Of a stretch of 64,000 nucleotides of DNA, positions 9,762 to 35,886 are shown one piece after another (the first letter of the stretch is position 1; each line of letters begins with the position of its first letter). The DNA is from Porphyra umbilicalis (Eukaryota > Rhodophyta > Bangiophyceae > Bangiales > Bangiaceae): NCBI GenBank assembly GCA_002049455.2, contig KV918801.1:1-64000 (forward strand). The letters are read 5' to 3'. Both the position numbers and the translations under genes were made by a program. Under the pieces are notes generated by a model. It did not search any database. It saw only the letters and a list, made by a program, of their open reading frames with translations, and was not told the origin of the DNA.

Positions 9762-9788
9762 TGGTGCGTGTCCCAAAAATGAGACATG
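9762..9788 (+). repeat. Left outer terminal repeat of the 26-kb element
   Basis: Begins TGGTGCGTGTCCC after TA at 9760-9761 and matches 35860-35886 in reverse with one mismatch (C/G at the thirteenth base). Confidence 0.8.
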
Positions 9789-10105
9789 CGCGTTTTCTGA
9801 AGGACTGACACATCACTGCATGGGGGCAGGCGGCGTGGGGTACGAGAAATTTCTTGACTGGCCTCCATGGAAAGAGCCTCTCCCGACGCGTGCTTGGCTG
9901 ACAACTCCTTAATACCCGCCTGTGGGCCCTGTTCTGTGGACCTCTCAGATAGCCCCGGTCTTGAAGCCAGTCTTTTTCAGGTTCTTGGGGTTGAAGGTTT
10001 GCAACGCCAAAGCTCATGTGCTAACTGGAGCTTCGATGAGGGGTGTCCCAAATCATGTTTTCCTCACAGGGGGCTACATGGCGGTCTTTTTCACGTTTTT
10101 ATTGG

Positions 10106-10131
10106 TATGGCGCTTCCCCCTTTTCTGATGG
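10106..10131 (+). repeat. Left inner box of the 26-kb element
   Basis: A 26-bp sequence beginning TATGGCGCTTCCCCC and ending TCTGATGG. It is identical in reverse to 35579-35604 and lies 344 bp inside the left end. Its first bases resemble the outer repeat. Confidence 0.75.
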
Positions 10132-10689
10132 CGATCGCTTTTGTGGTTACAGTGAGGCGGGGTAGTCCGCATTTTTTTTTTCTAGCCAAATTGACCAATG
10201 GCGTGCCTGGAGCGCAGGCCCGCCGTTGACTCAGCAGACAGCTCGAAGGCACGAGTTGCTGCAAGCCTCCATCGCCAAATTCGCAACCCACAGGACCCGA
10301 ATCTCCCATTTTGTCGCGCAGTAGCGTGCTCGCGCTCGTCGTCGTCGTCGGCGGTGAAACCGTCGCGATCACGGTCGGCGAAGCGGCCGCTGTCGCGCTG
10401 CCTGCCTAACACGGCCGTGGTCGACGGCTGTATGGGGGGCATCGTCGGTCATTGAGATCGTCATCGTGCTCAGCACCGGGGCTGGGGTGGTTGCGAGCGG
10501 GACGGCGGGCGCCGTCGCCGTCGTTTGGTCCGACGGCGTCGTGCTCGTCTGTGAAAACGCGGTCGGTTTTCAGCGTGACAGCAACAACGTCGACGTCTTC
10601 CCGCCCAGAGTCTGCGTGCGCCCCGCTGGTCTCGTGCTTGGTGCCGGGGAGGAGCTCGTCGTCGTCGGCGGCGACTCTGGCATGCCGGG

Positions 10690-11580
10690 GTTACTAGAGG
10701 TGCGCTTCGTCGAGTACGTCAACGAGCGCGCCGTCGTCTGTTACGACGCGGTCACACTGGTGATGCGCAAGGTGCGCGTGTAGGAGGGCGGCAGCGTGGT
10801 CGCCGTCGTCGGCGGCGAGGCAGTCGAGCTTGTGCTGGTGTTGGCCAGGGCGCGCGTGTTGGACTGCGTGCGCGAGGTTGGCGTCGTCGGCGGCGAGGCC
10901 GTCGTGCAGGTGCTTCTGTTGGCCAAGGTGCACGAATCAGCGCGTCCACGAGCTCGCCAACGTCGGCGGCGAGGCGGTCGTGGTGGTGCTTGTATTTGGG
11001 GAGGTGCCTGTGCTCGCGGGCGTCCGCGTGGTCGCTGTCGTCGGCGTCGACGTGGTCGCCGTCGTCGGCGGCGAGGCGGTCGTGGTGGTGCTTGTACTTG
11101 GGGAGGTGCCTGTGCTCGCGGGCGTCGGCGTGGTCGCTGTCGTCGGCGTCGACGTGGTCGCCGTCGTCGGCGGCGAGGCGGTCGTGGTGGTGCTTGTACT
11201 TGGGGAGGTGCCTGTGCTCGCGGGCGTCGGCGTGGTCGCTGTCGTCGGCGTCGACGTGGTCGCCGTCGTCGGCGGCGAGGCGGTCGTGGTGGTGCTTGTA
11301 CTTGGGGAGGTGCCTGTGCTCGCGGGCGTCGGCGTGGTCGCTATCGTCCGCGTCGACGTGGTCGTCGTCGTCGGCGCCGAGATGGTCGTGCTCGTATTGT
11401 CCTCCCTGGCGACCTGCAGCGTGCGCGTGTTTGAGAGCGTCCACGTGCTCGCCGTCGTCGGCGTCGAGGCGGTCGTGGTGGTGCTTGTATTTGGGGAGGT
11501 GCCTGTGCTCGCGGGCGTCGGCGTGGTCCCTGTCGTCGGCGTCGACGTGGTCGTGCTGGCGTTGGGCAAGGCACCTGCGG
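10690..11580 (-). repeat. His/Asp-rich coding minisatellite, locus 1 (102-bp units)
   Basis: Four 102-bp units begin at 10969, 11071, 11173 and 11275, with degenerate 78- to 102-bp relatives on both sides. Read on the minus strand they encode a 34-residue repeat containing HDRLAADDGDHVDADD and REHRHLPKYKHH, open for about 300 codons without a stop. Read on the plus strand they give a valine-rich frame that runs into the transposase gene. Because the unit is a multiple of three, several frames stay open, so real translation is uncertain. Related arrays lie at 18.06-18.96 and 30.23-31.25 kb. Confidence 0.7.
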
Positions 11581-11609
11581 GTGTGTCCGGGGAAGCACTT
11601 GTCTTCAGG

Positions 11610-12650
11610 ATGTATGTGGCAGCTCTGCGGTTTGCAGCGATATCGATGGTGCACCACGGTGTTCCGCGCTCAACCATCACGGCGGTTATTGGAGTTCGCT
11701 CTGCGCAGCTTGAGCGTTGGCTGTGCTATTGGAGGCGCAGCGAGAGCGTGTGGTGCGTACCTGAGCGACAAAATTGTCACGAAGATTCCTGCTGGGAGGA
11801 CGACACACTGCTGCGTGCTATCATCGCTCTCGTTCAAGAACATCCACTGGCACTTCTGAGAGAGCACACATCCATGATGACGGCCATGCGGGCGCTGCCG
11901 TCGGGTGAGTTTGCCCATCTGCGTGTGTCTAGGAGCACGGTGGACCGCATGCTGCGACGGCTCGGCTTCACACGGAAGGTCATCATCCGCTTGTACCGAG
12001 CGGCCAACCGAGAGCGTCGCCGCGAGCACGCAGTGTTGCGTCAGATGGTCGGGAACGGCTGCATCGTATCCGTCGACGAGACCCACAGAGACGGTCGCGA
12101 CGTTCTCCGCAGGTACGGGCGTGCTCTCCGAAAAGAGCGCGTTGACATGCTCGACATCAGTCCTCGGCACGTCGAGCGCGTCAGCACGACGATGGCGGTG
12201 ACGTCAGACGGGCGCATCCTGGGCTTGCACTCGGTCACGTGTGAGCGTGCACTGACGAGCAACGACTGGCGCCTGTTCTTGGGTCGTGTCATCCAAATGA
12301 TGGGTCGGTACACCCCTGGGGTCCCTTGGAACCTTCAAGCAGCAGCTTGCGTTTTGCTCTTCGACAATGCGCCAATCCACGATGCTGCTGGCGACGCCTT
12401 CTTGGAGAACAATGGGATCCCCTTCATCCGGCTACCGCCCTACTCTCCCGACCTGCAGCCCATCGAGGGTGTGTTCAACGACTTGAAGGTCATCATTCGG
12501 AACCTGGTGTACTTCAACCCGCATTTCCTCGAAGACGGCGTTCGTTTGCAGGCCCTGGCGGCAAGCCTCATCACGCGTCGACAGATAGTAGGGCAGTTCT
12601 CTAGAGTCGAAGAGAAGCTCGCCCGTGTTGCGGCCGGGCAGTGCTTCTAA
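11610..12650 (+). CDS. IS630/Tc1-mariner-type DDE transposase
   Basis: A 346-residue protein. I chose the ATG at 11610 because the open frame upstream is only minisatellite. Residues 10-45 form a helix-turn-helix (STITAVIGVRSAQLERWL), and a second one near 105-135 contains VSRSTVDRMLRRLGFTRKV. The catalytic triad is visible: Asp156 in VSVDETHRD, Asp252 in LLFDNAPIHD and Glu286 in PPYSPDLQPIEGVFNDLK, with 33 residues between the last two, close to the 34 of Tc1. The frame is intact, with a TAA stop. It lies 1.85 kb inside the left end of the 26-kb element, pointing inward, and is the best candidate for that element's transposase because TA targets are characteristic of this superfamily. It could instead belong to a small nested element whose ends I did not find. 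Confidence 0.88.
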   Translation: MYVAALRFAAISMVHHGVPRSTITAVIGVRSAQLERWLCYWRRSESVWCVPERQNCHEDSCWEDDTLLRAIIALVQEHPLALLREHTSMMTAMRALPSGEFAHLRVSRSTVDRMLRRLGFTRKVIIRLYRAANRERRREHAVLRQMVGNGCIVSVDETHRDGRDVLRRYGRALRKERVDMLDISPRHVERVSTTMAVTSDGRILGLHSVTCERALTSNDWRLFLGRVIQMMGRYTPGVPWNLQAAACVLLFDNAPIHDAAGDAFLENNGIPFIRLPPYSPDLQPIEGVFNDLKVIIRNLVYFNPHFLEDGVRLQALAASLITRRQIVGQFSRVEEKLARVAAGQCF

Positions 12651-14366
12651 AACTGTTGATGTAGACCAAAAATCCATGGCCTCCCGGAAACGAAACCCAC
12701 ACACGTGTGTGTGTGTGTGGGCCACACACGACATGCACACCAACATGACCTGTAGATATGACAGACGCAAGAGAGGGTTGTGTCGGGTACCCATGGCACT
12801 GGAGCAGTGAGGGTGGCGACGCACTCTAGCAGTGCTGACCATGACTGTCGTGTAGCGTGTCATGCAGGGCGCCAGGAAGACGCAGTTGACCTATGGGACG
12901 CAACAGGTGCCATCTGGGACTTGGCCAAAGGGACACAACAGGTGCCATCTGTGACTTTGCGAATGGGACGCAAGGGGTGGTGATCGGAGCCTGCTCATGA
13001 AAAACTTATTTGTTGCACTCTTTTGAAATAGAAAGTCCTGCGCCATTGAAACCGAAGCTTCCCCACAGAAGTCGAGCCATTTGAAATCTTTGAGATCGAC
13101 AAAAGAAGAAACTTGCTGGAGATTGTGGAAAGTCGATGCCGTCGGGATCCGTTGGCAGCAACTCTGTGTTTTTCTGTGCTGAAGGTGGCATGAACAGGGA
13201 CATCGCGCCGCCATTTGGGAGCCCATCACATCGACTGTGTGCCACAGCTGGTGTTTGTTTGGTATGCTACACAAGGGACAGTGCTAGGGACAGTGCTAGG
13301 ACCATGTGCCGTAGTGCTCGCCGGTCAATGAGCGCTGGAACGGCAACTGCACGGTGACATGCTACGAGGCACGACTCCCAAGTCACTGCCGTAGCAAGCG
13401 TTCTGCTTTTACTTGCACAGGCGGCTGCGTCGAGTGACAGTCGTGCTCTGGAGCTGTGAGGAGTGGTGCAGGCGGGCACCAGACTGGAGGCCATCGGTTG
13501 GCATAGGTGGGCATCACACTGGTGGCAAAGCGCCTCGCCGTCGCCGCACGGCGTTGTCGCGCGTTGCCAGCTACGGCGGGGCCACCGCGGTTGCGGCCGT
13601 GGCAGCCCCAGCGACGAATAGGCCACTCGCAGCTGTCTTACGTGCAGCCGCCCGCCGCTGGCCACGGGCAGGCAGGCGCACCCGCCGCTACCAACACTTG
13701 CGGCGGCAACGCGCCAGCCGCCCGTCAGCGGCGCGGGCCGACGGTTGCGGCCACCACGAGGGTGTGCAGACCCGCGCGGCCGGCGTCACACCCTCGGGCG
13801 ACGGGCCGCCGGAGGGTGTGACGCCCGGCACCGCCCCCGATGGAAGCGGTGTAGCTCCGCCATCGGTGGCGGCGGGCGACGAGAGTACCAAGTCGACGGC
13901 GGCGCGACAGCCAATTGCGTCGAGGTAGCGGCCTTACGTACCCCCCCCGCGTCCCCCCCCGACACGTCATCGTCGCCTGCGACGGCGACCGCTTCTTACG
14001 GCCGTGCGGCCGCGGGGCGGCCGCACAACCGCGGCAGCCGAGGCCTCAGGCGCCAGCCGTTTCCCGGCCGCCACGCTCAGCGGCATTGCCACTGACACGC
14101 CGACGGGCGACGAACCATTACGCACGAATTGTGAAATGACAACTGACATACCTCGCAATTAGCCTGTCCCAGATCAGCATGATTGGTCCACGCAGCAACT
14201 GGGGCGCGGAATTTTGGTGATTTGAGCACTTGAGCGACAAACGCAGGTCACGACACCTGCTGAGGTGCGTCGGGGGGAGCACGATCAGCTGTCGGCATCC
14301 CATTGTCAGCTGTCGGCATCTCGTTGTGGCTGGTCGCGGCCGCGGACCCCGTCTCGCCTTGCCACA
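12651..14366. other. Spacer upstream of the E(z)-like gene
   Basis: A short GT/CA microsatellite with inverted flanks lies at 12697-12730. At 12896-12975 a unit containing CAACAGGTGCCATCTG is repeated twice, with a third partial copy. From 13.4 to 14.1 kb the DNA is GC-rich with overlapping open frames on both strands and no domain. The E(z) promoter should lie here, but I see no convincing core motif. Confidence 0.5.
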
Positions 14367-17300
14367 ATGGCGACAATGCGCTGTGTCCCCGAGGAGAACT
14401 ATGTGGAGGATTGGCCCAACGATGAGGGGCATTTGTCCGATGTGGACGACGATGCTGAAGCTGCCGACCTTGTGGCTGCCGCCTCTGGGGACTGCACTAT
14501 TCTGAAGCGTGTCATCCTTCGTCTGTATGGCAGAGCGGGGCGCCGCGCTCGTCGGCGTCGTCGCGCGGAGGGGCGCATAGCCATTGCGGTGAATCGGGCC
14601 GCGGCTGAGCGCTACGCCCGCGCCGCGGCAGCGGTGTCTGTGGCTGCCGTCTCCCGCCCTGTTGAGCAGGCCCCCACATCGTCCGCGTTGCTCGCGCGTG
14701 TTGGTGCCCCCGACGTTGATAGTCGCTATGCCAGTACTGTGGCATCATCCAGCAGAGTTGGCCCGAGTTGCTGTCGCGGGGAGGCTTTGAGTCCGGGTGG
14801 GGGGAATGTGGTGTATGGAAGCCTCCTGGAGAGGAGCAGACGGAAGAATGGGGCACGCGCCGAGCAACCTGACGACGACGAGAGGCGGCCCCCCCGAGAG
14901 GCGCAGCGCACTATTCTCGACTACCTGCGCTCCGCACGGCACGCGCGGGTGGCGCCGAGCGCCACCGCCGCGGACGACGCTGTGGTCGTCACGATTCTTC
15001 CAGCAGCTGAGCGTCTCCCACCGGCGACTGCTTACACGTCATTGCGTCGGTCTTGGCGACGGCTTGAGCACGTGCCTCCCGCCAAGTTCACGACATACCT
15101 TGGCCCCTCGGACGAGGCGCATGCAAAGGCGGAAAAGATCATGCGAAAGAACGGATGGGCGCCCCCCGAGTGGAACAGTGACGGCAGCGACGCGTCTGAT
15201 CCGGACATCATTCATCACGAAGGGCACTACCGATCGCTCCCGTCGCTTATGTGTCGGTTGGCGCAGCGGGCGGGGGTGCAAGCTGTCGTGGAGGCCCTGG
15301 GTGAATCACCTGCGGTGGTGAGCGCTATGAGCAGCGCATTGGGCGAGACCGTCTCCTTCCTGACCCACGTCATACAACTCATCAAGCGTCGAGCGGCTGA
15401 CCACCGCCGGGCTTCTGCGGGTCGAGCCGCGCGCGCCAAGAGCCGAGCGAAGATCGAGCGCTTGACGGGCGGTGCCAGCCTCGCCGTCGTTCTCGGCACT
15501 GGAGCCGTAAGGGAGCAGGTCGTCAGTCCATCGGTCGGTGAGTGCGTTGCACAGGTCGGGCGCCTCGGCCATGAGGACCTTCATGGTCATCAGGCCGCGG
15601 CCGTGGCGCTCGCCGTCGCTGCGACGACAGCTGCGTCTGACGTGCTCGCTGCTGGTCTTCCCCCCGCCAGTCGCGCGTGGGCGACGCGGGAAGCCGCACT
15701 TGTACGAGAGTCGCACGCCGACAACGGCGCGCTGCGGGCCGACGTTGCCGCGCTGCGGTCTGTTCACGCTGCCCTTCGTGCTCCAGAGGGTCCTGCCGCG
15801 GTCACGCTTCTGCCTTGTATGGGCGCTCTGTTCTCCACGGACCATGTGGACCGCGCAGACGCTGTCGCCTCCGAGTGTGCGCCGGCGTTCGACTTTTATG
15901 GGACGTCGAGAGAAGTCTTCTTGCGTTTGTTGTGTCGAACGTGCCTGCGCTACACTTGTCGCGTGCACGGCACGCACACGGTGGAGCCGTCGTCGTCTGT
16001 ACCTGTCGCTCGTCGTGATGATGCGTGTCGAGGCCGTGATGCAAACGCGCGCGCGGACCCAGATCGGGTTGCGGGGGTCGTCCCTGGAGAGTGGAGAGCG
16101 TCATTCCACGCGGCGTCCTCCGCGCACCGCGAGCGGCATCGCCGTCGCAGGGTGCTCAGCGACAGTGATGGTGACGCGGACGGTGTCGGGGCTGGAAGTG
16201 CTCGCTCTCGTGCTGTGGCTGTCAGCGACAGCGACGGTGACGCGGACAGTGTCGCGGCTGGCAGCGCTCCCTCTCGTAATGTGGCTGTCAGCGACAGCGA
16301 CGGTGACGCGGACAGTGTCGCGGCTGGCAGCGCTCCCTCTCGTAATGTGGCTGTCAGCGACAGCGACGGTGACGCTGACAGTGTCGCGGCTGGCAGCGCT
16401 CCCTGTCCTGGTGTGGGTCTTGGCGTCGAAGGCGTCAGCGCGGGTCATCCTGCCGCGTGCGAGAACGTTGTTGGCTCTTCGAGAGGCGTTTTGGACCGTT
16501 TGTGTGGAGGCATTGACAGCCTCGTTGTCAATGATGAGGACGACCACGTTCCCGACAGTGATGTACCCGTCTTCGCACGGCCCTCCGTGTCGGATGGTCG
16601 CCGTGGTGGTCGCGCAGGCATTTTGCATGCTTCCATTGCCGCAGCAGCCAGTGGGTGCGCGGAGTGTCGCCACGACGCTCGCGTGAAGGCGGCCATGACG
16701 TACGAGAAGCCGACCGTCGATGATTGGAGTGACGCACAGGTGGCGCTTCTTCACCTAGGCGCAGACATTGTCGGGGACGGAGACACTTGTCTTCTCGCCA
16801 GATTTGTTCCTGGCAAGACGTGTCGCGGCGTTGCTGACTACATTGCAGGGGCGGGGTGGACTGGGCGGGGCATGTCGCACGTACAGCCGCCTGACGAAGA
16901 TGTCGACGTGGATGCCGCCGCACGCGACAGCTCCACGCCCGTGACAGGGGCTGGGGCGGCGTTTGCACGTGGCTTGCAGCAAACTCACACGCGTCCGGCT
17001 TCACCGCCGTTGTCCCTGGGTGCGTTTTCCTCGCCTGGGAGAACCACAAACGTCAGCAGTCAGGAGAACCCCGACGCGCCTGACAAGGTGCATGACTTCA
17101 TGCCGTGTTTCCACGTCGGTGCGTGCACGGCAGAGCGCTGCAGGTGCGCAAGGGTGGGACTGTCGTGCGAGAAGTCGTGCTGGTGCGCTCTTGGTTGTCG
17201 GGCAGCGGCGGGGCGGTCTGCGTCGTCGGCGGGCACCTCGTTGGCGCTCATCGACGCCGCGCCAGCTTCTGCGTCTCGGCAGTGCAACCGGCGCACCTGG

Positions 17301-17969
17301 TGCGCATGCGTGCCGCCGTCACGGTGTGCGACGGACGAGTGCCCGTGCTTCAGCGTCGACCGGGAGTGCGACCCCGATGCGTGTCTCACGTGCGGTGCAC
17401 ACTGGAATCCGGATACTGGTGTCGACGGGCTGCCAACACCACCCGGGCAAGCTGGCCCAAGCGCCGGTGTACCGCCTCTGCGTGGGGCTGGGCTCCTTAT
17501 TGAAGCGGACGTTGCTAGCGACGGCATGGCTGCTGGAGAGGCGGTCGGTCGGCGCTGTTGCCGGAATGTTCAACTACAGGTCGGTGCTCGAGCTCGCTGT
17601 GTGCTCGGCCGCTCAGGCGCACACGGACTTGGGGTCTTTGCATCTGAGCCGGCGGCTGCCGGGGACTTCGTCAGTGAGTATGTTGGCGAGCTACTCTCCA
17701 ACGGGGAGGCACATGCACGAGGGCGCGTCTACGACGCAATGGGCGTCAGCTTCCTGTACTCTGTCACGAAGACGGTCAACATCGATGCCAAGTACAAGGG
17801 CAATCGGACGAAGTTCATCAATCACCGAAGAAAGGAGCTCGCCAACGTTGAGGCAAAGCTGTTAAACGTGAGCGGCCAAATCAGGGTCGGCTTATTTGCC
17901 CGGGCTCCGTTGGTTCCCGGAGAGGAGCTCTTCTTCGACTATGGCTACGACGTGCCTGGGTGGGTGTGA
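14367..17969 (+). CDS. E(z)/EZH2-like histone H3 lysine-27 methyltransferase
   Basis: A 1200-residue intronless protein from the ATG at 14367. Domains in order: acidic and basic N-terminal region (about 1-500); an MCSS-like cysteine motif (LLCRTCLRYTCRVHG, about 520-535); four 22-residue repeats with the core VSDSDGDADSVAAGS (about 594-680); a second SANT domain (WSDAQVALLHLGADI ... PGKTCRGVADYI, about 785-825); a full CXC domain (912-1013, ending SVDRECDPDACLTCG); and SET (about 1073-1195). E(z) is the catalytic subunit of PRC2, which trimethylates H3K27 in chromatin. SET keeps Asn1152-His1153, Tyr1192 (FFDYGY) and GEELFFDY, but the usual NHSxNPNC stretch reads NHRRKELANVE, and the position of human EZH2 Tyr641 is Met. 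It lies inside the proposed 26-kb element beside the transposase. The reading frame is intact, so it is probably expressed and under selection; the altered loop could affect activity. Confidence 0.9.
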   Translation: MATMRCVPEENYVEDWPNDEGHLSDVDDDAEAADLVAAASGDCTILKRVILRLYGRAGRRARRRRRAEGRIAIAVNRAAAERYARAAAAVSVAAVSRPVEQAPTSSALLARVGAPDVDSRYASTVASSSRVGPSCCRGEALSPGGGNVVYGSLLERSRRKNGARAEQPDDDERRPPREAQRTILDYLRSARHARVAPSATAADDAVVVTILPAAERLPPATAYTSLRRSWRRLEHVPPAKFTTYLGPSDEAHAKAEKIMRKNGWAPPEWNSDGSDASDPDIIHHEGHYRSLPSLMCRLAQRAGVQAVVEALGESPAVVSAMSSALGETVSFLTHVIQLIKRRAADHRRASAGRAARAKSRAKIERLTGGASLAVVLGTGAVREQVVSPSVGECVAQVGRLGHEDLHGHQAAAVALAVAATTAASDVLAAGLPPASRAWATREAALVRESHADNGALRADVAALRSVHAALRAPEGPAAVTLLPCMGALFSTDHVDRADAVASECAPAFDFYGTSREVFLRLLCRTCLRYTCRVHGTHTVEPSSSVPVARRDDACRGRDANARADPDRVAGVVPGEWRASFHAASSAHRERHRRRRVLSDSDGDADGVGAGSARSRAVAVSDSDGDADSVAAGSAPSRNVAVSDSDGDADSVAAGSAPSRNVAVSDSDGDADSVAAGSAPCPGVGLGVEGVSAGHPAACENVVGSSRGVLDRLCGGIDSLVVNDEDDHVPDSDVPVFARPSVSDGRRGGRAGILHASIAAAASGCAECRHDARVKAAMTYEKPTVDDWSDAQVALLHLGADIVGDGDTCLLARFVPGKTCRGVADYIAGAGWTGRGMSHVQPPDEDVDVDAAARDSSTPVTGAGAAFARGLQQTHTRPASPPLSLGAFSSPGRTTNVSSQENPDAPDKVHDFMPCFHVGACTAERCRCARVGLSCEKSCWCALGCRAAAGRSASSAGTSLALIDAAPASASRQCNRRTWCACVPPSRCATDECPCFSVDRECDPDACLTCGAHWNPDTGVDGLPTPPGQAGPSAGVPPLRGAGLLIEADVASDGMAAGEAVGRRCCRNVQLQVGARARCVLGRSGAHGLGVFASEPAAAGDFVSEYVGELLSNGEAHARGRVYDAMGVSFLYSVTKTVNIDAKYKGNRTKFINHRRKELANVEAKLLNVSGQIRVGLFARAPLVPGEELFFDYGYDVPGWV
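16140..16405 (+). repeat. 66-bp in-frame tandem repeat within the E(z)-like gene
   Basis: Four copies of a 22-codon unit. The first is diverged and the next three are almost identical. They encode acidic Ser/Asp-rich linkers between the MCSS and SANT regions. Confidence 0.85.
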
Positions 17970-18059
17970 GGACCGGGCGGTCGTGGCATTTTTTGTGTTG
18001 GGGGAGATGCGCGCGTTGGAGTGTGCCAACATGGGCGCCGACGACGTCGGAAAGGCGTT

Positions 18060-18960
18060 CTGCTAGTGCTTGCGTTGGCCTGCGAGCGCGTGCTGGAGTG
18101 GTTACATGTGGCCTCTGTCTTCGGCGGCGAGGCGGGCGACCTGGCTCTCGTGTTGGGCGAGGTCCCGGCTTTTAGAGATGTCAAGGAGGTCGCCGTGCTC
18201 TACGGCGAGGCGGTCGAGCTCGTGCCCCTGCTGGCCTCTGTGCGCGTGCTGGAGTGCGTGAACGACTTTACCGTCGTCGGTGTCAACGCGGTCGTGCTGT
18301 TCCTGATGTGGCACCCGGTGCGCGTGCTGGTGGGCATCAACGAGCTCATCGTCGTCGGTGACGAGGCGGTCATGCTTCTGTCGGTGTGGCGCAAGGTGCG
18401 CGTTTTGGAGGATGTTGAGGTTGTCGCTGTCGTCAACGGCGAGGCGGTCGAGCTGGTGCTGGTGTTGCATCAGGGGCGCGTGTTGGCGGGCGTCAACGAG
18501 CGCGCAGTTGACGAGTTGGCGGCATCGAGGCGGTCGAGCAGGTGCTTGTTTTGGACAATGTGTGCGTGCCTGATTGAGTCCATAGGCACGCCGTCGTCGA
18601 CGACGAGGCGTCCATGTTGGTGTTGGCGTGGCGCCTCGTGCGCGCGTTGGCCAGCGTCAACGAGGTCACCGTGCTCGGCGGCGATGCGGTCGTGCTCGTG
18701 CTCGTGTTGGCCACGGTACATGTGCTCGAGTGCGTGAGCGAGCTTGCCATAATCGTGGGCGAGGCGGTCGGTCGTGCAGGTCCTGTTGTTTTGCGAGGTG
18801 CAGGTGTTGGCGGGCGTCAACAAGCTGGCCATCTTCGGCAGAGAGGCGGTCGTGCACGTGCTGGTACTGTTCGAGGTGGGAGGGTTGGCGCTCGTCAACC
18901 AGCTCGCCGTCGTCAGCGGCGACGCGGTCGTGCATGTGCTGTTGTCTGTCACGGTGTGAG
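18060..18960 (-). repeat. His/Asp-rich coding minisatellite, locus 2 (about 78-bp units)
   Basis: Diverged units of about 26 codons. On the minus strand they read like HDRLVTDDDELVDAHQHAH and HDRVAADDGELVDERQPSH. The array is in the same orientation as locus 1 and starts just after the E(z) stop codon, so the transposase-plus-E(z) block is flanked by directly repeated related arrays. Whether it is translated is unknown. Confidence 0.7.
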
Positions 18961-19329
18961 TGCTTGTTTGTGGCGACGCTACGGGTGGTGGCGATGCGGT
19001 TGTGCTGGCGATTGGGAAGGCTGGCATGCTGGCGAGTGGAAAGTCGGCCACCGTCGTTGCTGGGCGGCGTGCGCGTACTCGTGTGCGTGACAGGGATGAT
19101 GGTTAGCTATTAAGGGCCACTATGCTTCTTGCGCGTCACTACAGGACACAACACACAGCAGTAAAGCAGCAGGTACGACGAGACACACGTGCCCCACACA
19201 ACAATGCACAACAAACAGCAGTAAAGCAGCAGGAACAGCAACACACATCACACAGCAGTGAAGCAGAAGTTGCAACGACAGCAAAGAAGAGGGAGCGTAC
19301 TCCAGAATCGTTCTGTTGCCCTTTGCGTA
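18961..19329. other. Spacer with short direct repeats
   Basis: Contains several copies of ACAGCAGTAAAGCAGCAGG and related short repeats between 19158 and 19262. No gene supported. Confidence 0.5.
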
Positions 19330-26559: not shown

Positions 26560-28440
26560 CCCCACAGCAGCGGTGTTGCCGTCCCGTTTGGTGCGTAAGT
26601 CGCAGGGTGTCTCGCTGTCTCTCTTGCGGGCGTGGCTCTGCATCAGCAGCGGTGCTGCCGGCCCGTTTGGTGCGTAAGTCGCAGGGTGTCTCGCTGTTTC
26701 ACTTGCCGGCGTGTCTCTGCATCAGCAGCGGTGTTGCCGGCCCGTTTGGTGCGTAAGTCGCAGGGTGTCTCGCTGTTTGTCTTGCCGGCGTGCCTCTGCA
26801 TCAGCAGCGGTGTTGCCGGCCCGTTTGGTGCATAAGTCGCAGGGTGTCTCGCTGTTTCACCTGCCGGCGTGCCTCTGCATCAGCAGCGGTGTTGCCGGCC
26901 CGTTTGGTGCGTAAGTCGCAGGGTGTCTCGCTGTTTGTCTTGCCGGCGTGCCTCTGCATCAGCAGCGGTGTTGCCGGCCCGTTTGGTGCGTAAGTCGCAG
27001 GGTGTCTCGCTGTTTGTCTTGCCGGCGTGCCTCTGCGTCAGCAGCGGTGTTGCCGGCCCGTTTGCTGCGTAAGTCGCAGGGTGTCTCGCTGTTTGTCTTG
27101 CCGGCGTGCCTCTGCATCAGCAGCGGTGTTGCCGGCCCGTTTGGTGCGTAAGTCGCAGGGTGTCTCGCTGTTTGTCTTGCCGGCGTGCCTCTGCATCAGC
27201 AGCGGTGTTGCCGGCCCGTTTGGTGCGTAAGTCGCAGGGTGACTCGCTGTTTGTCTTGCCGGCGTGCCTCTGCATCAGCAGCGGTGTTGCCGGCCCGTTT
27301 GGTGCATAAGTCGCAGGGTGTCTCGCTGTTTCACTTGCCGGCGTGCCTCTGCATCAGCAGCGGTGTTGCCGGCCCGTTTGGTGCGTAAGTCGCAGGGTGT
27401 CTCGCTGTTTGTCTTGCCGGCGTGCCTCTGCATCAGCAGCGGTGTTGCCGCCCCGTTTGGTGCGTAAGTCGCAGGGTGACTCGCTGTTTGTCTTGCCGGC
27501 GTGCCTCTGCATCAGCAGCGGTGTTGCCGGCCCGTTTGGTGCATAAGTCGCAGGGTGTCTCGCTGTTTCACTTGCCGGCGTGCCTCTGCATCAGCAGCGG
27601 TGTTGCCGGCCCGTTTGGTGCGTAAGTCGCAGGGTGTCTCGCTGTTTGTCTTGCCGGCGTGCCTCTGCATCAGCAGCGGTGTTGCCGGCCCGTTTGGTGC
27701 GTAAGTCGCAGGGTGTCTCGCTGTTTGTCTTGCCGGCGTGCCTCTGCATCAGCAGCGGTGTTGCCGGCCCGTTTGGTGCGTAAGTCGCAGGGTGACTCGC
27801 TGTTTGTCTTGCCGGCGTGCCTCTGCATCAGCAGCGGTGTTGCCGGCCCGTTTGGTGCATAAGTCGCAGGGTGTCTCGCTGTTTCACTTGCCGGCGTGCC
27901 TCTGCATCAGCAGCGGTGTTGCCGGCCCGTTTGGTGCGTAAGTCGCAGGGTGTCTCGCTGTTTGTCTTGCCGGCGTGCCTCTGCATCAGCAGCGGTGTTG
28001 CCGGCCCGTTTGGTGCGTAAGTCGCAGGGTGTCTCGCTGTTTGTCTTGCCGGCGTGCCTCTGCATCAGCAGCGGTGTTGCCGGCCCGTTTGGTGCGTAAG
28101 TCGCAGGGTGTCTCGCTGTTTGTCTTGCCGGCGTGCCTCTGCATCAGCAGCGGTGTTGCCGGCCCGTTTGGTGCGTAAGTCGCAGGGTGTCTCGCTGTTT
28201 GTCTTGCCGGCGTGCCTCTGCATCAGCAGCGGTGTTGCCGGCCCGTTTGGTGCGTAAGTCGCAGGGTGTCTCGCTGTTTGTCTTGCCGGCGTGCCTCTGC
28301 ATCAGCAGCGGTGCTGCCGGCCCGTTTGGTGCGTAAGTCGCAGGGTGTCTCGCTGTTTCTCTTGCGGGCGTGGCTCTGCATCAGCAGCGATGTTGCCGGC
28401 CCGTTTGGTGCGTAAGTCGCAGGGTGTCTCGCCTTCTTTC
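26560..28440 (+). repeat. 79-bp tandem array, about 24 copies
   Basis: Units are nearly identical. Each contains GGCCCGTTTGGTGC, then GTAAGTCGCAGG, then a pyrimidine-rich stretch ending GCATCAGCAG. The unit length is not a multiple of three, so the 67-codon frames in each copy are incidental. Variants mark internal history: a GTGACTCG variant at about 27239, 27476 and 27792 is followed in each case by a GTGCATAAG variant about 64 bp on, giving higher-order steps of 237 and 316 bp (3 and 4 units). The first and last units share a diverged TCTTGCGGGCGTGGCTC form. It lies inside the proposed 26-kb element. Confidence 0.95.
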
Positions 28441-28661
28441 TTGCAGGGGTGCCCCTGGACCCAACAGGCAGACGTGGCTTTGAGGTTGCCACGGGGCACT
28501 TGTTGCTGACGCCGAATGCTATCAATCGTGGTCGTATTGCACGACGTACCTGAAGCGCACTCGCCGTCGACGCACTTCGTGGGGGGGGCATTAATAGCCG
28601 AAGATATGAGACACGGGGAGACGAAAACTAACAGTGTATTCTTCCACCAAGTCGTCCACCG

Positions 28662-30140
28662 TCACACGTGGGGTGGACCCTCGTCAACATCAAACGGTCC
28701 TTCTCCATCAGGACTGTCGTCTCCACCACTACCGCTGACGCATCCCGACCCACCCACAATGTCACCGGACCGCGACCGCTTGCGAGGCCGCCCCTCCTTT
28801 GGCGCTGACAATTCCGCTTCCTTGTGTATCTTGACCATCCAGACCGCAAGCATCATCAGCAAGTTCGTGTGCGGCTTCAGCAGCCGAGACGAGCACAGCT
28901 GCTCCGCGAAGCGCGCCGGCGTCACGACACCACAAGTGAGCATTACGCCCAGGAGCATGTTGTTCCGGGCGCCATCGATGAAGTCTGCTTTCACCTCAGG
29001 CAATTTAGACGCCATGGCGTCGCCGAGCGATCCCTTGTGCGCCGCCAGCGCCAGCTCTTCTGACGTCATGACGCTGAGCGACGGCTGCTCGAATGCACGC
29101 AGAGACTCTTCAAAGCGCTGGCGCTCGCCCGGCGGCCACGCAAAGGGGCTCGCCGCCGCCTCAAACGACCGCGTCCCACTACCCGTGCCAGTTGTCGCGT
29201 TGACGGCTCGTGACGCTCGCCGCGTCGATACAGACCTCGTCAAAGAGAGACGGCGAGCAGTATCTCTGCCAGCTTGCGCCATTGGCAAGTTGCTGGCGCC
29301 AAAGAGCGTCTGCGCGCTTACGAGGGAGCTCCCTCGCGACGTCTGGCCGCCGCATGACCGCGGCATGGCCTGTTGTCCGACTGATTGTTCGGCATTGGCG
29401 GCAGCGGCCGCAGTGGCAGATGGAGCAGCCCGAGCGGCTGCTCGAACGGCAGCCGCGACGCCGTGCGCCGAAGGGGCGCCAACGACAGGTCCCGTTGGTC
29501 CCGTTGCCGCAACGGGGCCTACTGCCGATGGCCGCGTCGAACCGACGAACACGCCGCATGCCCCCAAGGCTGCATCCACAGCAGACACATTGGGGTCTTC
29601 CAGGAGACGCGACGACTCGTCAAAGTGTGCCCGGTTGGAGGGATCCAGGGTAGCGGCCTTCATTCCCATCTCCTCCATGCGGGCCAGGCTTGCCGCTGGG
29701 TTCATCCCCGACTGCGACGCGTTGCCAACGAGCTCCTCCGCGGCACCTGCCAGACAAGCTGACTCATCCAACTTCTTCTTGTAGTGGGCAACCGCGGCCA
29801 CGCGAAAGCCCTCGGCCTCGGCGTCGTGAATAAGGCCACAAACGTAATCCCCCCCGCGTAACGGCGGTGCGCTCTCCTTGCGCAAAATGCTGCCGCCCGT
29901 GCCGCTGCGGTAGTGCGTGCCACTGACGGCGAGAGTTCGGTTCGAATGTCCCATAATGTCGCATGATGGGCATTTCTGCCTGCAAACACATGCCAGGTCG
30001 GTGCATCGTGTGATGTGGCGCTTGAAGGGGTTCCCGGCGGGAAGCGTACGGCGGCACGGTAGTTTGCGCAAGTCGCATGACACCTGCCCGTGGCCGGTCT
30101 TGTCCTTCGAGTCAAAACCGCACAGCAGGCACCGAGTCAT
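28662..30140 (-). CDS. Zinc-binding protein with acidic tail
   Basis: A 492-residue intact frame from the ATG at 30140. The N-terminal 65 residues hold a cysteine/histidine series: Cys4, Cys7, His16, Cys21, Cys28, Cys45, Cys50, Cys52, Cys56, Cys59, His64 (QKCPSCDIMGH). This domain is shared with the small protein at 23181-23555. The middle is Ala-rich with helical stretches (FDESSRLLEDPNVSAVDAAL), then comes a conserved-looking segment near 380-440 (KADFIDGARNNMLLGVMLTC, LMMLAVWMVKIHKEAEL), a basic RPRKRSRSGD motif (possible nuclear signal) and an acidic tail. It resembles a nuclear DNA- or chromatin-binding factor, but I cannot name it. It lies within the 26-kb element, and the His/Glu-rich array lies just upstream. 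Confidence 0.65.
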   Translation of the reverse strand: MTRCLLCGFDSKDKTGHGQVSCDLRKLPCRRTLPAGNPFKRHITRCTDLACVCRQKCPSCDIMGHSNRTLAVSGTHYRSGTGGSILRKESAPPLRGGDYVCGLIHDAEAEGFRVAAVAHYKKKLDESACLAGAAEELVGNASQSGMNPAASLARMEEMGMKAATLDPSNRAHFDESSRLLEDPNVSAVDAALGACGVFVGSTRPSAVGPVAATGPTGPVVGAPSAHGVAAAVRAAARAAPSATAAAAANAEQSVGQQAMPRSCGGQTSRGSSLVSAQTLFGASNLPMAQAGRDTARRLSLTRSVSTRRASRAVNATTGTGSGTRSFEAAASPFAWPPGERQRFEESLRAFEQPSLSVMTSEELALAAHKGSLGDAMASKLPEVKADFIDGARNNMLLGVMLTCGVVTPARFAEQLCSSRLLKPHTNLLMMLAVWMVKIHKEAELSAPKEGRPRKRSRSGDIVGGSGCVSGSGGDDSPDGEGPFDVDEGPPHV

Positions 30141-30229
30141 GATGACTCCTACCTCCAGCTCAGGGCGCTGCTGAAAACGACGGGCGCCACGCGGACGGTC
30201 ACCACGACGTCCTACCTGCCGAACGACAC

Positions 30230-31250
30230 ACACGCGCAAAAACAAAGGTACGAGGACGAGCACCAGCGCGCGCGCGGATGCGACGCCGCCGACAACCACG
30301 TGCAGCTCGTCACCGACAACCCCGACCTCCTTCCAGCCCTCCACAGCGACGCCGAAACGGCAACGAGCACGATCACGAGCACGAGCTCGCGCAGCACGAC
30401 GTGCACGATCACAGGCACGAGCTCGCGCAGCACAACGTGCACAAACACGAGCACGAGTGCGCGCAGCCCGACGTGCACAAACACGAGCACGAGTCCGCGC
30501 AGCCCGACGTTCACCACGATGGTGAGCACAAGCGCGAGCTGGAGCGCGAGCTGGAGCGCGAGCTGAAGAGCGAGCTGGAGCGCGAGCACGAGGAAGAGCG
30601 CAAGCCAAGCGTGAGGGCGAGCACGAGGAAGAGCGCAAGCACATGCGGGAGGGTGAGCACGACGACGAGCACGACGACGAGCACAAGTGCGAGCACAAGT
30701 GCGAGCTGGGGCGCGAGCACGAGGAATAGCGCAAGCACAAGCGGGAGGGTGAGCACGAAGACGAGCACGACGACGAGCACGACGACGGGCACGACGACGG
30801 GCACGACGACGGGCACAAGCGCGAGCAGGACCGCGAGCAGGACCGCGAGCGCGAGCTCGAGGTAGAGCCAAGCACAAGCGGAAGCAGAAGCGCGAGCAGG
30901 ACCACAGACACGAGCAGTTGCAGCCCGTGAGCGCGCACCTCTGCTCGGCCGCCGCGCCCGCGCGCACAACGCCGACTACGAAAGTGTCGCCGGAGAAAAC
31001 CACGGCCACCTCGTCACTGACGACCACGACCGCCTGGTGCCCCCCCCAAATGAGCACCAAAAGGAGCACGAGCACGAGCGCGAGCACGAGCGCGAGCACG
31101 AGCGCGAGCACAAGCGCGAGCACGAGCGCGAGCACGAGCGCGAGCACGAGCGCGAGCACGAGCGCGAGCGCGAGCGCGAGCGCGAGCGCGAGCACGAGAA
31201 CGAGCACAGGCACGGGCACGGGCACGGGCACGGAAGGGAGCCCTAGCAGG
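30230..31250 (+). repeat. His/Glu-rich minisatellite, locus 3
   Basis: On the plus strand, units read HELAQHDVHDH, HKHEHECAQPDV and then long EHERE runs built from 6- and 12-bp repeats (31060-31200). Segments such as HGHLVTDDHDRLVPPP resemble the repeats of loci 1 and 2, here in the opposite orientation. The long leucine/valine frame on the minus strand is the by-product of the same repeats. It lies upstream of the zinc-binding gene at 28662-30140. Confidence 0.65.
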
Positions 31251-31794
31251 AGCGCTAGCAGGAGCACTAGCACAAGCGAGAGCAGCGGCAGTCGGAGCCC
31301 GCGAGCGAGCTCCCTGGCGGCCGCGCCCACGCCGACAACGATCTCCACGCGGCCCAGCACCACGAACGCCGACACGAACAGGACCACGACGCACGACAAC
31401 ACGCTCGGGGGACGCGAAGTGCCAGCGAGGCGACTTCGCGAGAAACAGAGCCAATGAGAACAGTCCCCTGGTGCACCCCTGCTGCCCGTCGCGAGATGCG
31501 GTGGAGGGCCGCCGTGCAAGAACACGCCCCGTCTGAGACATGCACAGAGGACCGGTCTGCTGACCGAGGCGGCCGACGGGAGAACACACCGGCTGCAGCG
31601 ACCCACACATGTGGGGGCAACAGCCGTCAACGAGGAATCACCCACTTGCCCGAACGTTCCGGGGTGCCACAGGTCGCATAAGGCCGTTCAGACAAGCAAA
31701 GAACCGAGGAGGCCAAGTGAGCTTCTGAGCTTTTTTCGGATGAGGTCCCAATTGGGACCATATTGAAGGACGTCGATTTAACGGCACCTGCATC

Positions 31795-34700
31795 CACGCC
31801 TAGTCAAGACCCTGTGTATCGGCTCTTCTGGGTCGCGACCGCAGTTACAACGTCCCATTGGGTTCTCGCGTCAAATGCAATCGTCTATTGGTCAGATCAG
31901 AATCTGTCAGCCTCCTCTCGCATTACGCCGAAGACACCTGTCTTTTCCTGTGACTCGCCACGTGGATCAAGTCAACCCCCTCAGCTGGGCCATGAGAGGG
32001 GGGGGGGCTTTCCTTGCAGGGACCTGTACCTTAGAGAAATCGGCACCGACCCGCCCCCCTCTCCACGATGCGACGCGCGTCATGTACCGGCACGGCTCGC
32101 TCACTCCACAACTCGGCATGCCGCCGCACATTCACCATAGTGCCCGCCCCGCGCAGTACCCTCCGCCATGCCCATGTCCAAAACAAAACACTGCCATTTT
32201 ATCAGCGAGCCTGGTTCTGCAGACGACCCTCGTACGTAACCATGGTCTCTGCAGCGACTGCGAACACCTTGTCCGCCCACAGCTCCCGCTCGTGCTCAGC
32301 TTTCTTCTGCGTCTCATCACACAAGGGCACTGCGGGCTTGTTGGCGCGCAGTCGCCCGTCTCCAGCTTTGGTAGCCTTGTGCGCCCCGTCCTTTGCCGAC
32401 GCCCGCTGGGGGCCACCCCGCCCGACCACAGCGGGGCTTGCGTCCCCAGCCAGCGTCATGGCGCGCACGAATGCGGCGGCGGACGCGAGGTCCGATTCGC
32501 CCGGGTACAGCCGCGCGGTCTGGGTGTACCGCCCGTGCCATGCTTCTAGGCCCTGCTCACCGTAGAGCCCGATGCTCCCAAACTCATCCAGGAAGTCAGG
32601 GGCGTGGGCTAGTAGGATGTGGAGCTTAGGAGACAGGTTGACCCACCCGAAGGACCGCTTCAGGCCAGCCACAAATGCGGCCACATCCGACCTAAACGCA
32701 CTAGCCTCGGCGGCCGTCGCGATGGTCGCACGGTTGAGGACCTTCCGGACACCGTTCCACCGCCCCCACGCGTCCTTGTACGCCTGCAGGTACTGCATGG
32801 CTCTCTCGCCGCGCTCCGCTACCGCACCGGAAAGTTTCCCCTCCAGCGCCGCGCACACAGCGTCACTGTGCTCCCCGATTGCGTGGCAATCACGCCCGAT
32901 AAACAGGCCACCATGATATGGCACAGGGTGCACATGCGCCTCGGTGTGCAGTAGCTCAGCCAGCTCGTAGGCAAAGTCGGATGCCACGCTTCGGCCGCAG
33001 CACCGTATCACTACTTCCACACTCAGCCGCAACACCCGGGAGGTGATTCCAAGTGTGAGGTGAACAGGAATTGGGACGATTTGGCGAGGATGGGGGGACA
33101 GCAGCGGCCGTCGGGTCACAGACAGATGGTCGTCCTGGTTGGACTTGGACTCGTTCGCCGACCAATTGACGTATTGACCAGCTTCACACGGGCGCCATGG
33201 CCCCGAAACGTCTTGAAGGGTCCCGTACTTCGCGTCGAGCGTCGAGTGCGTGACGGTCGGCGCCTTGGTGCTCTTGCACTGGATGCACGGCATCGTCGCG
33301 CTGGGGCCTTTGTGCCCCACAACCGTGCATTGCGACTCGAGGTCGCCAGACAACAGCAGCCGCACAGGACGTCGCTCCCCGCGTACGTCCAGCCCCCGCT
33401 GCAGGAGCTCGTTCACACCGGCCGTGTGAGTGGCCATCATAGCCGAAACCTCGGGGTACTTGTCTTTAGTGCATGGGCAGACCGCAGCGAGGATGGTGTT
33501 GCTCGGGTTGTTCGGCCGGTCCTGGTTGACAATCGAGAGCACGATTTTCTCGGAGGCGGGTTCGCCCCCCTTGTCCAAGCCGACGGTGATGTGAACGTCG
33601 GGGACTGTCGGAGGGGGGCGGCCTCCCCAGGCCCCGATTTCGAAGTCGCCTGGGACGACTGCGTCCTCTGCCCGCAGCGGCTTGCGGTCTGCGCCGTAGA
33701 CAAACCGCTCGACGAATCGGCCTGCATCGCAAAGAGCGGTCACGCGCTCCTGCACGGCCATTGCCAAATTGGCCAGATGGGCACCTGTGGTTGTGACCAC
33801 CACCTGCTTGGCGGGCGAGTCCGCGAGTTCTTTCTTGGCGGCGCGCAACACGTGGCGGCTAGCCAACCCGCTCTCGCGTCCGCCCATCGCCCGACGGAGT
33901 TTGTTGAACGCCGACCAGCTGATGCCCAGCTCAAAAACGATCCCAACCTGCTGCCTGTGGGATAGGTTTACCCGTGCAGGCCCACCACCGGCACAGACCG
34001 ACCCCTCGCTGTCCACGCCCGACACCACGCCGGCTACCATCAGCTGGCGTCGAGCCGCCGCTCGCCGCTTGTTTTCTTGGCTTCTTTTGACGGCCACCTT
34101 CCGCGGCGACACTTGGCGCACGTACACCCGAGGCCGTCCGTTTTTCTGCTGGAGACAGATCTGATCGCGGTCTGCGTGCAGCAGAATGGCCGATGCAATG
34201 CGCCAAAGGATGGACTCGTCCTGGGTCCGGCCGACGCCACCCGAGAGAAGGTAGTCCAGAAAGGCTTGGCAGCTCGGCTCGGGGTGAACCTCAGCGGGTA
34301 GGGCGGCGGAAGCGACATTGCCGACATCGGCGTCGGGGCGGAGCAGTGCATCAGCAGCAGGACCGGTGTCCACTTCAAGTGATGGGCGGGGACAGTCCGC
34401 TTCCGGCGGACACAGGGAGGAGGTGGCAGAAGGGTGGCCCACAGCCGGCAGTGTCGCACGTGCGCGCTTCGCGAGAGGATGAATTGAGGTAGTGGAGACT
34501 ATGGGGACTGCGGGAGGGGCCACAAAGCCACGCTTTGCTGCCCTTCGCTGCCGAGAGAAGCACGCGTCACGGCTGCCTCGTCTGCACCTCGATACAGGGA
34601 GGCGGGCCACGCGCAGGCACGGTGTGCCTGGTGGACTCTGGAGTGCCACTTCCCGCCACGCAGTCATGCCAACTGCCTCCTTGAGGAAGAGGCGGGTGCA

Positions 34701-35287
34701 TGAGTCACACGTGTAGGCCCAGACTGGCCCGTCAAACGCGGATGCAAAGTCATCCACCGTAGCCCTGTGGACAAGAAGGCACAAAAAAAGGGCCAGACAC
34801 TGCTGCAAGGGTCAATGGGACATGTCCAGAAAAGCAGCGGTCATGGACGGTATGACAGGCGGGGATGAAGCAGGCGTGCGATCGCGTAGCACTCAGATCA
34901 CAGCTCCCGTACTCATCCGTACACTAATAACGTACTTCCCGTTTCCGACAGTGTCGACCATTTTGTGAACCCTCACAGGATGACCGTTGCAGGGTCGGCG
35001 CAAGGGAGCGGAAGAACCTCTTCACCAGGGCACAGTTGCCAACTGCCACCTGCGACGACACGGGATCACGTCATGACTCTGATGTCAGCATCGACGATTG
35101 ATTTTTGGTGGTGCCGCACCCCCCTCAATGAGGCAGCAGCGGGGGGGTCGCATTTGGGTCGCGGCGCAAATCGCGTTCGACCACTCATGTTTATGCACGT
35201 TGCTCAAGATGTTTCAGGGGGTCGCTCCGAGTTTTCAGGGGGTCGCTGTCAAGCACCGACCCAGAAGAGCCACCTTGACTAGGCGTG
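31795..35287 (-). mobile_element. Autonomous CACGCC-family DNA transposon, 3.5 kb
   Basis: Terminal repeats: CACGCCTAGTCAAG then GGCTCTTCTGGGTCG at both ends, with a 12-base spacer between the blocks at the left end and a 2-base spacer at the right. CATC flanks both sides (31791-31794 and 35288-35291), a perfect 4-bp target duplication. One spliced gene fills the element. It sits inside the proposed 26-kb element, 0.6 kb from its right end. A 4-bp duplication with CAC-type termini would fit CMC (Chapaev-like) or Academ-like elements, but assignment is open. Confidence 0.9.
32202..34961 (-). CDS. Transposase of the CACGCC element, two exons
   Basis: Exon 1 is 34961-34936 (MVDTVGNG plus two bases). 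A 171-nt intron (34935-34765) has GTACGT at its start and a pyrimidine-rich CCACAG end. Exon 2 starts at 34764 and keeps frame to TGA at 32202, giving about 862 residues. A CDSC pair near the N-terminus and CIQC near 495 suggest zinc binding. Acidic candidates for a DDE-type site are Asp406 (VGLDKGGEP), Asp483 (LLLSGDLESQ) and Glu745 or Glu749 (YGEQGLEAWHGRY), preceded by SPKLHILLAHAPDF. This order resembles transposases common in invertebrate and protist repeats, but I cannot name the superfamily. The intact frame and perfect target duplication suggest recent activity. Confidence 0.8.
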
Positions 35288-35578
35288 CATCTGGGACACC
35301 GCAGGGCGACGCGTGAAAAAAAGCTGGGTACCGACTAGGAAAGAACTAAGCTTTTTTCACATGGCGGATGACAGTGGCTCTGAGCTTACCCCGTTTTGAA
35401 GCACTGGACCCCTAGAGTCGCACCAATCGGCGACTTTTCTCGTGACTGGCTCAAATTACTTTGCCACACGAGTGCAACAAAAAACTGCAGAAGCCCAGCC
35501 CAGAGCATCTCCGATCGCCCCCCTCTGGCATCCTGGGAGGGGTCAAAAGAAAAACTGGTGCCAGAAGCTCAAGGTGTC

Positions 35579-35604
35579 CCATCAGAAAAGGGGGAAGCGC
35601 CATA
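35579..35604 (-). repeat. Right inner box of the 26-kb element
   Basis: Exact reverse complement of 10106-10131, lying 282 bp inside the right end. Confidence 0.75.
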
Positions 35605-35859
35605 AGGTGGTGCCCTTTTCTTGGTGCACAAATTGTCAGCACATGCCTGCTCTAGTATCTGTGCATTTGATTGGGCAGCGTGATTGTCACCTGTCGAAGT
35701 TGCAATGAATGACACTTTCCCCCATGACACGTTAGGATGTGCCGCCTCTGCTAACACCGTCAGGGGCTGTTCTGGTAGCACATTGGGACCGAGTGGGTCA
35801 CATTACATTATCGGACCGTTGCAGAAGGCCAGTGGGCCGAGAAAAAAAGAAAAAACAGC

Positions 35860-35886
35860 CATGTCTCATTTTTCGGACACGCACCA
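35860..35886 (-). repeat. Right outer terminal repeat of the 26-kb element
   Basis: Reverse complement of the left terminal repeat with one mismatch, followed outside by TA at 35887-35888. Confidence 0.8.

Follow-up and report, generated by a model that had tools for sequence, protein, structure and literature searches.

Architecture of the locus

We analysed a 64,000-nucleotide stretch of the red alga Porphyra umbilicalis (GenBank assembly GCA_002049455.2, contig KV918801.1, positions 1 to 64,000), referred to here as the window. It has a G+C content of 63% and is part of contig C41 of the assembly, which comprises 83.8 Mb in 665 contigs; copies elsewhere are cited by their contigs. Within the window lies a giant mariner-type transposon with genes for a transposase, an Enhancer-of-zeste [E(z)]-like protein and a zinc-finger-like protein. 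This element is inserted in a short miniature inverted-repeat transposable element (MITE) and is itself interrupted by another transposable element (TE). The features that define the locus are as follows.

10106..35604, no strand assigned: giant mariner-type transposon, 25,499 bp including both TA copies
10108..10131, + strand: left terminal inverted repeat (TIR) of the giant element, 24 bp, with TA at 10106-10107
35579..35602, - strand: right TIR of the giant element, 24 bp, with TA at 35603-35604
9760..10107, + strand: left part of the MITE, including TA and the 27-bp terminal repeat 9762-9788; its last TA (10106-10107) is common with the giant element
35603..35888, + strand: right part of the MITE, with TA and the terminal repeat 35860-35886; short copies match it in their own right part
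11601..12650, + strand: Tc1/mariner-IS630-type transposase, candidate start Met at 11610, with D159, D255 and E289 of the translated stretch
14226..17969, + strand: E(z)-like protein in a single open frame of 1247 amino acids, in which CXC and SET domains are accompanied by weak MCSS-like and SANT2-like matches
28662..30140, - strand: zinc-finger-like protein of 492 amino acids, at the end opposite the transposase
31795..35287, - strand: nested 3.5-kb TE with a 14-bp TIR, CACGCCTAGTCAAG, and a 4-6 bp duplication; the right boundary is accurate to a few bases

An earlier note on this DNA had described two motifs near each end of the locus, and both were found. The outer one is a 27-bp inverted repeat (9762-9788 and 35860-35886), identical at 26 of 27 positions and flanked by TA at 9760-9761 on the left and 35887-35888 on the right. 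The inner one is a 26-bp box present as two exact inverted copies (10106-10131, +; 35579-35604, -), 344 bp and 282 bp inward of the outer ends. An exact inverted match of 26 bp is expected about 2.5e-6 times per 64-kb window of such composition. Across the genome and with up to two mismatches, the outer motif has 740 matches (371 + 369) and the inner box has 17, with none for the reversed control of either.

From these motifs the earlier note had proposed a single 26-kb mariner-like element. The window does contain a mariner-type element of very large size, flanked by TA and carrying genes, but its boundaries lie at 10106-35604 and not at 9762-35886.

The outer and inner repeats belong to two elements

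The outer repeats were traced to a short element that is abundant in the genome. The left part of the MITE matches positions 1-365 of many short copies; the stretch between the outer left end and the inner box has at least 64 match rows genome-wide (the best 40 of 421 candidates scored), and the corresponding right part at least 46 (the best 40 of 406 candidates scored). In short copies elsewhere the left and right parts adjoin directly, and removal of 10106-35602 from the window leaves exactly 632 bp. Among 30 complete copies with exact 14-bp ends at the fetched loci, identified with an end pattern that included the TA, 25 measure 632 bp, three 631 bp, one 633 bp and one 644 bp. The uncut junction ATTGG-TA-AGG is present in 27 of the first 38 loci scanned, and supplies for the window copy the kind of empty site with a single TA that the earlier note had suggested seeking, here at paralogous positions. 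The outer pair therefore bounds a TA-flanked MITE, being short, present in many copies, of near-fixed length and equipped with TIRs and TA on both sides. Counting end motifs gives an upper bound of ~370 MITE copies, or 0.28% of the genome. At G000:C1:107280-107331, two MITE ends stand head to head with a single TA in common.

The inner box behaves differently. A query with the inner left flank located the terminal stretch at ten further sites (C21, C138, C115, C14, C61, C144, C50, C179, C253 and C5), and the box is recognisable at eight of them, the exceptions being C144 and C5. The right terminal stretch was matched at C21, C115, C138, C50, C179 and C144, with parts of it elsewhere. Complete inverted box pairs of the window's family number six: C41 (25,499 bp), C21 (22,011 bp), C138 (21,825 bp), C115 (18,440 bp), C50 (12,087 bp) and C179 (11,794 bp). 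The search for other full-length copies that the earlier note had recommended thus yields five besides the window's own, of 11.8-22.0 kb. The flanks of the giant copies vary from copy to copy, while TA is constant at their ends. Because copies elsewhere terminate at the inner box in other flanking sequence, the giant element ends there: the box is its terminal repeat, and in the window it is inserted at a TA inside the MITE.

A third layer is added by the nested 3.5-kb TE. Its site is intact and empty in the C21 copy, and it is missing from this position in all seven related right ends examined (C21, C115, C138, C50, C179, C144 and C110). Without it the window copy would measure ~22.0 kb, comparable to C21. 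The 632-bp join, the uncut junctions at 27 of 38 loci, the giant copies in other flanks and the seven right ends that lack the nested TE together establish a nest, in which a giant mariner-type transposon of ~22 kb landed at a TA inside a 632-bp MITE and was in turn interrupted by a 3.5-kb TE.

Giant copies of this family are found in the MITE repeatedly. A terminus and its flank are visible in ten copies (C41, C21, C138, C115, C61, C50, C179, C144, C14 and C253), four of which lie in or directly at a MITE: those of C41 and C138 at the same TA, that of C61 at another internal TA and that of C14 at the TA of a MITE end. Given that MITEs make up 0.28% of the genome, the binomial probability of four in ten is ~1e-8. 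The density of TA does not explain this preference, at 26.9 per kb in the MITE versus 22.0 in the window flanks. ATTGG-TA inside the MITE is a possible hot target site. A member of another family, at C23, also adjoins a MITE end; for C14 and C23 the giant element and the MITE could have been inserted in either order. The MITE at C14 is itself located at the same ATTGG-TA site as the giant elements in C41 and C138.

Genes carried by the giant element

The transposase matches PF13358 (DDE_3, E-value 7e-15), above cut-off in both the C41 and C50 copies, and matches the IS630 model NF033545 with an E-value of 3e-23 that is yet below that model's cut-off. Its triad is spaced by 95 residues between D159 and D255 and by 33 residues between D255 and E289; a sequence search found no relative among solved structures. 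At least 116 match rows are present genome-wide (the best 116 of 379 candidates scored). With a DDE_3 domain bearing the full triad, TIRs and a TA target duplication, the giant element belongs to the IS630-Tc1-mariner (ITm) group. Tc1/mariner elements are usually ~1-5 kb long, a length exceeded by all 17 large TIR pairs described below (11.8-43.8 kb); we treated size as a variable trait and not as grounds for exclusion.

The E(z)-like frame matches PF00856 (SET, 4e-15) and PF18264 (CXC, 2e-5), and its best solved relatives are EZH2 chains, with E-values of 4e-34 for the C-terminal part and 3e-33 for the whole frame. Alignment to EZH2 comprises five collinear segments, of which the MCSS, SANT2 and first CXC segments score only 0.8-6.2 bits when taken alone; when two E(z) copies were scanned, only the one from C50 matched the MCSS model PF21358 (E-value 0.008). 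NCBIfam gave matches below cut-off, the best being to a SET-bearing bacterial effector family. The order CXC then SET, with EZH2 as best solved match, places the protein in the E(z) subfamily of SET proteins. The SET domain keeps GxGVF, NH and FFDY, but not PNC. Genome-wide, the frame has at least 70 match rows (the best 37 of 2417 candidates scored). The zinc-finger-like protein has at least 110 (the best 87 of 245 candidates scored), and a Pfam scan of it gave no match to any known family. The compact C50 copy has the same three genes, which are the sole frames of at least 200 amino acids in the 9 kb read.

Ratios of nonsynonymous to synonymous substitution (dN/dS) were calculated with our own Nei-Gojobori script for a single pair of copies, C41 versus C50. 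The transposase gave a ratio of 0.06 (dS 0.46, 241 codons), the E(z) frame 0.35 (dS 0.64, 1207 codons) and the zinc-finger gene 0.21 (dS 0.54, 354 codons), so that in the one pair compared all three genes are under purifying selection. The last two windows along the E(z) frame, which cover the SET domain, have dN/dS values of 0.17 and 0.09; the window that includes most of the CXC region has 0.31, and the others have 0.28-0.52. Their similar dS values suggest that the three genes have been associated for comparable lengths of time.

A lineage of related giant elements

Profile searches revealed 76 CXC hits genome-wide, all above cut-off, and 26 hits to the VEFS box of Su(z)12, with none of either in 14 control genomes. 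The CXC hits lie close to the other element genes: 58 of the 76 are within 20 kb of a transposase (4.1 expected), 48 are within 20 kb of a zinc-finger gene (2.9 expected) and 72 are within 40 kb of one or the other. Both genes occur within 40 kb of 47 CXC hits, with E(z) flanked by the two in 37 cases. VEFS hits follow the same pattern, with 23 of 26 within 30 kb of a CXC hit (1.4 expected) and 17 of 26 within that distance of a transposase (2.1 expected). Expected values assume an even spread of hits over the genome, and the counts used 116 unmerged transposase rows (C61 appears twice) and 110 zinc-finger rows representing 81 places; the hit lists, in which the best candidates were scored, are lower bounds.

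For a view of whole elements, we paired occurrences of the lineage box TATGGCNCTTCCCC. At up to one mismatch the box has 222 matches versus 45 for the reversed control, with 100 of the 222 places among the matches listed, and pairing was therefore restricted to the 85 exact boxes. These form 24 adjacent convergent pairs of less than 60 kb and none in other orientations. Seventeen pairs are large (11.8-43.8 kb), of which 16 contain a transposase and E(z), 15 a zinc-finger gene and 10 a VEFS hit, whereas seven short pairs (3.4-4.8 kb) are without these markers. The pairs at C19 and C1, whose boxes each have one mismatch, were examined separately and are outside these counts. That at C19 (G000:C19:117449-121152, 3.7 kb) holds a transposase and part of a zinc-finger gene with no E(z) hit, and is a short form of the same lineage.

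Evidence for mobility comes from a second family. Its copies at C86 and C57 both measure 20,643 bp from TA to TA and have ends like TGGCACTTCCCCAAAATTTGATGGCA; their end stretches, which the base comparison covers, are 99.7% identical over 1878 bp and 99.9% over 1361 bp, their flanks differ, and all four markers lie at identical offsets. The association of genes extends to transposases ~51-58% identical to the window's. A VEFS open reading frame (ORF) in the C86 copy matches the Pfam profile at 4e-10, and a Su(z)12-type VEFS protein shares its unit with E(z) in 10 of the 17 large pairs, which belong to families other than the window's. No WD40 match was found in the window ORFs scanned with Pfam or in two C86 ORFs; no search was aimed at ESC/EED.

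The genes that recur in the lineage thus encode a DDE_3 transposase together with proteins of the E(z) and zinc-finger types, to which families other than the window's add a VEFS protein of Su(z)12 type. We place the probability of the architecture as a whole, a three-layer nest at the locus and a diversified lineage of TA-flanked giant elements, at roughly 0.88.

Relation to known systems

The giant elements resemble ITm transposons in their DDE_3 transposase, TIRs, TA on both sides and shorter TIR-bounded relatives in the same genome. They differ in their size of 12-44 kb, their extra conserved genes, the 33 residues from second D to E and the lack of an IR/DR (inverted repeat/direct repeat) arrangement. 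SETMAR likewise joins a SET domain with a mariner transposase, but it is a host gene that arose by fusion of a single SET gene to a single mariner, whereas here the two are separate genes on mobile elements.

The giant algal KDZ, EnSpm and Sola-1 elements (PMC12477816) are similar in measuring from >10 kb to >30 kb and in holding accessory genes and nested TEs. Among them, a 21.5-kb Sola-1 family of Ectocarpus encodes a ParB-DNA methyltransferase protein, for which a class of epigenetic accessory proteins has been proposed. These elements have transposases of other superfamilies, and their cargo is a prokaryote-type DNA methyltransferase where ours are subunits of the Polycomb repressive complex 2 (PRC2) type; the passages naming giant superfamilies list KDZ, EnSpm and Sola-1, not Mariner-Tc1 (PMC12477816). 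A term search of the main text of a review of giant transposons (PMC6431247) found neither mariner nor Tc1.

A link between mariner elements and PRC2 silencing is known from animals, in which mariner elements carry silencers that use host PRC2 (PMC4777549). There the silencer is DNA within the transposase ORF, whereas here the element encodes PRC2-type proteins. The PRC2 subunits E(z) and Su(z)12 (PMC9018016) share with the element proteins CXC and SET domains, weak SANT2-like and MCSS-like matches and the VEFS box; the element genes differ in occurring in many copies inside transposons and in their divergent SET motif. In unicellular eukaryotes, PRC2 is tied to transposon silencing (PMC9018016, PMC8788455, PMC10638273), and it has been hypothesized that PRC2 originated as a transposon silencer in single-celled eukaryotes (PMC10638273). 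Searches of the open-licence literature of PubMed Central gave, among the titles listed, no report of transposon-encoded E(z)/SET genes or of giant mariners with chromatin cargo, though such a report may be in print elsewhere. Giant DNA transposons with chromatin-modifying cargo are already known; those described here are of the mariner superfamily and carry PRC2-type subunits.

Mariner-type elements of up to 44 kb thus join the giant DNA transposons. The lineage makes a Polycomb-transposon arms race directly testable, and its divergent E(z) and VEFS proteins form a natural collection. Where E(z) and Su(z)12 genes are counted in protist genomes, some of them may belong to transposons.

Proposed role of the PRC2-type genes

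In the mechanism that we propose, the transposase would bind the 24-26 bp ends and transfer the entire element of 12-44 kb to a TA by a cut-and-paste reaction. As PRC2 subunits encoded by the element, the E(z) and VEFS proteins would join or compete with host PRC2 and alter H3K27-type silencing at the element, most likely aiding its own expression or persistence. They might place the mark on the element's own copies, as a form of self-restraint, or they might divert host subunits as decoys. We lean slightly towards interference with or redirection of host PRC2 over self-restraint. A PRC2 role for the element E(z) and VEFS proteins has about an even chance. The same even odds attach to the broader proposal that a giant Tc1/mariner lineage may have taken up two core PRC2 genes into its life cycle, and with them writes or jams the repressive mark to which transposon silencing in single-celled eukaryotes is attributed.

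Several observations weigh against the architecture or the proposed role. TA formed part of the search patterns for both the inner box and the lineage box. At C138 the second half of the MITE was not found within 1.5 kb on the other side; this locus is therefore either rearranged or not a simple insertion. Several copies have stops in the transposase or in E(z). The C13 pair (G000:C13:247903-280136), 32.2 kb in length, contains none of the four marker hits and is possibly a giant non-autonomous member. Four CXC hits have no linked transposase or zinc-finger gene (C278, C466, C76 and C412), although a TIR box lies 5 kb from the hit in C278 and a VEFS hit 14 kb from that in C466, and three VEFS hits have no linked CXC, transposase or zinc-finger gene (C478, C154 and C6). 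No VEFS protein was found in the window's own family with the VEFS profile, with the C86 VEFS protein or with Pfam on seven ORFs, five of them the window's, and a single-sequence search with the C86 VEFS ORF returned no SUZ12 chain. Structure predictions had a confidence score (pLDDT) of 31 for the zinc-finger protein and 28 for the CXC-SET part and were not used. The SET domain departs from EZH2 in having NHRRKELANV in place of NHSVNPNC, and has Met or Ile at the position of Tyr641; because of these changes, the methyltransferase activity of the E(z) protein may be either retained or lost. The activities of all the proteins are inferred.

Alternative explanations

The earlier note had read the locus as a single mariner-like element of 26 kb that extends between the outer repeats and has two motifs per end in an IR/DR arrangement. 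The order and orientation in which both motifs pair, and the TA beyond them, do fit this reading, but the outer parts alone form a 632-bp element that is intact at many places, and giant copies elsewhere terminate at the inner box in other flanks, with MITE parts on both sides only at C41 among the fetched loci. The 632-bp join and these termini rule the IR/DR reading out: the motifs are the termini of two elements, one nested in the other, and we give the single 26-kb element almost no probability. A composite, in which the giant element sits in the MITE and the outer ends can now mobilise the whole 26 kb, would draw on outer ends that are intact and 26/27 identical. It is nevertheless very unlikely, as no second outer-bounded copy occurs among the giant copies with flanks read, at C138, where the giant element occupies the same position in the MITE, the second half is missing within 1.5 kb, and a 26-kb span is far above the 631-644 bp of complete MITE copies. 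An integrated DNA virus or virus-like element might account for the size and gene cargo; we give it almost no probability, however, given that no viral protein family was matched among the ORFs scanned with Pfam, or with NCBIfam (five ORFs), that two scans of viral contigs found no relative of the transposase or E(z), and that short TIRs and TA flanks fit a DDE transposon.

Two further alternatives concern the cargo. It is highly improbable that E(z) and VEFS are ordinary host genes beside which giant mariners inserted, even though PRC2 genes are ancient in eukaryotes (PMC9018016) and, among the seven unlinked CXC and VEFS hits listed above, those at C76, C412, C478, C154 and C6 are without any other marker. 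Against it stand the position of E(z) between paired TIRs in 16 of 17 large pairs and the identical offsets in two copies at different loci (C86 and C57), and for TIR-bounded copies we reject it. The E(z), VEFS and zinc-finger genes could instead be neutral captured passengers without a role in the element's life; giant DNA transposons often hold accessory genes of unknown use (PMC12477816), and stops are present in some copies. We consider this unlikely, because dN/dS in the one pair compared is 0.35 for the E(z) frame (0.17 and 0.09 in its SET windows, 0.31 in that with most of the CXC region) and 0.21 for the zinc-finger gene, compact 12-kb copies retain the genes, and the association reaches transposases as distant as those ~51-58% identical to the window's.

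Nested element and minor features

The remaining features of the window are listed below.

32205-34811, - strand: ORF of 869 amino acids in the nested TE, with a weak DUF1280 match below cut-off
26565..28457, no strand assigned: 79-bp tandem array, 24 copies
10942..11390, no strand assigned: 102-bp tandem array between the left end and the transposase
19251..19641, - strand: conserved short stretch, 72% identical to C50, with a frame containing a CxxC motif (FECRVC...STAxDFIxHV)

The 869-amino-acid ORF was considered as a gene of the giant element and rejected, as it is part of the nested 3.5-kb TE and missing from related copies. An end stretch of the nested TE, 563-588 bp long, is repeated at 90-100% identity in C19, C46, C2, C59 and C179. 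The C21 copy of the giant element holds only ~390 bp of the 79-bp array. A Pfam scan of the frame in the conserved stretch 19251..19641 gave no match. Around the giant element, long inverted repeats occupy the window flanks (1126-3176 with 56890-59376, and 9192-9421 with 52670-52899) and are 76-94% complementary; they are possibly another repeat family or an inverted duplication.

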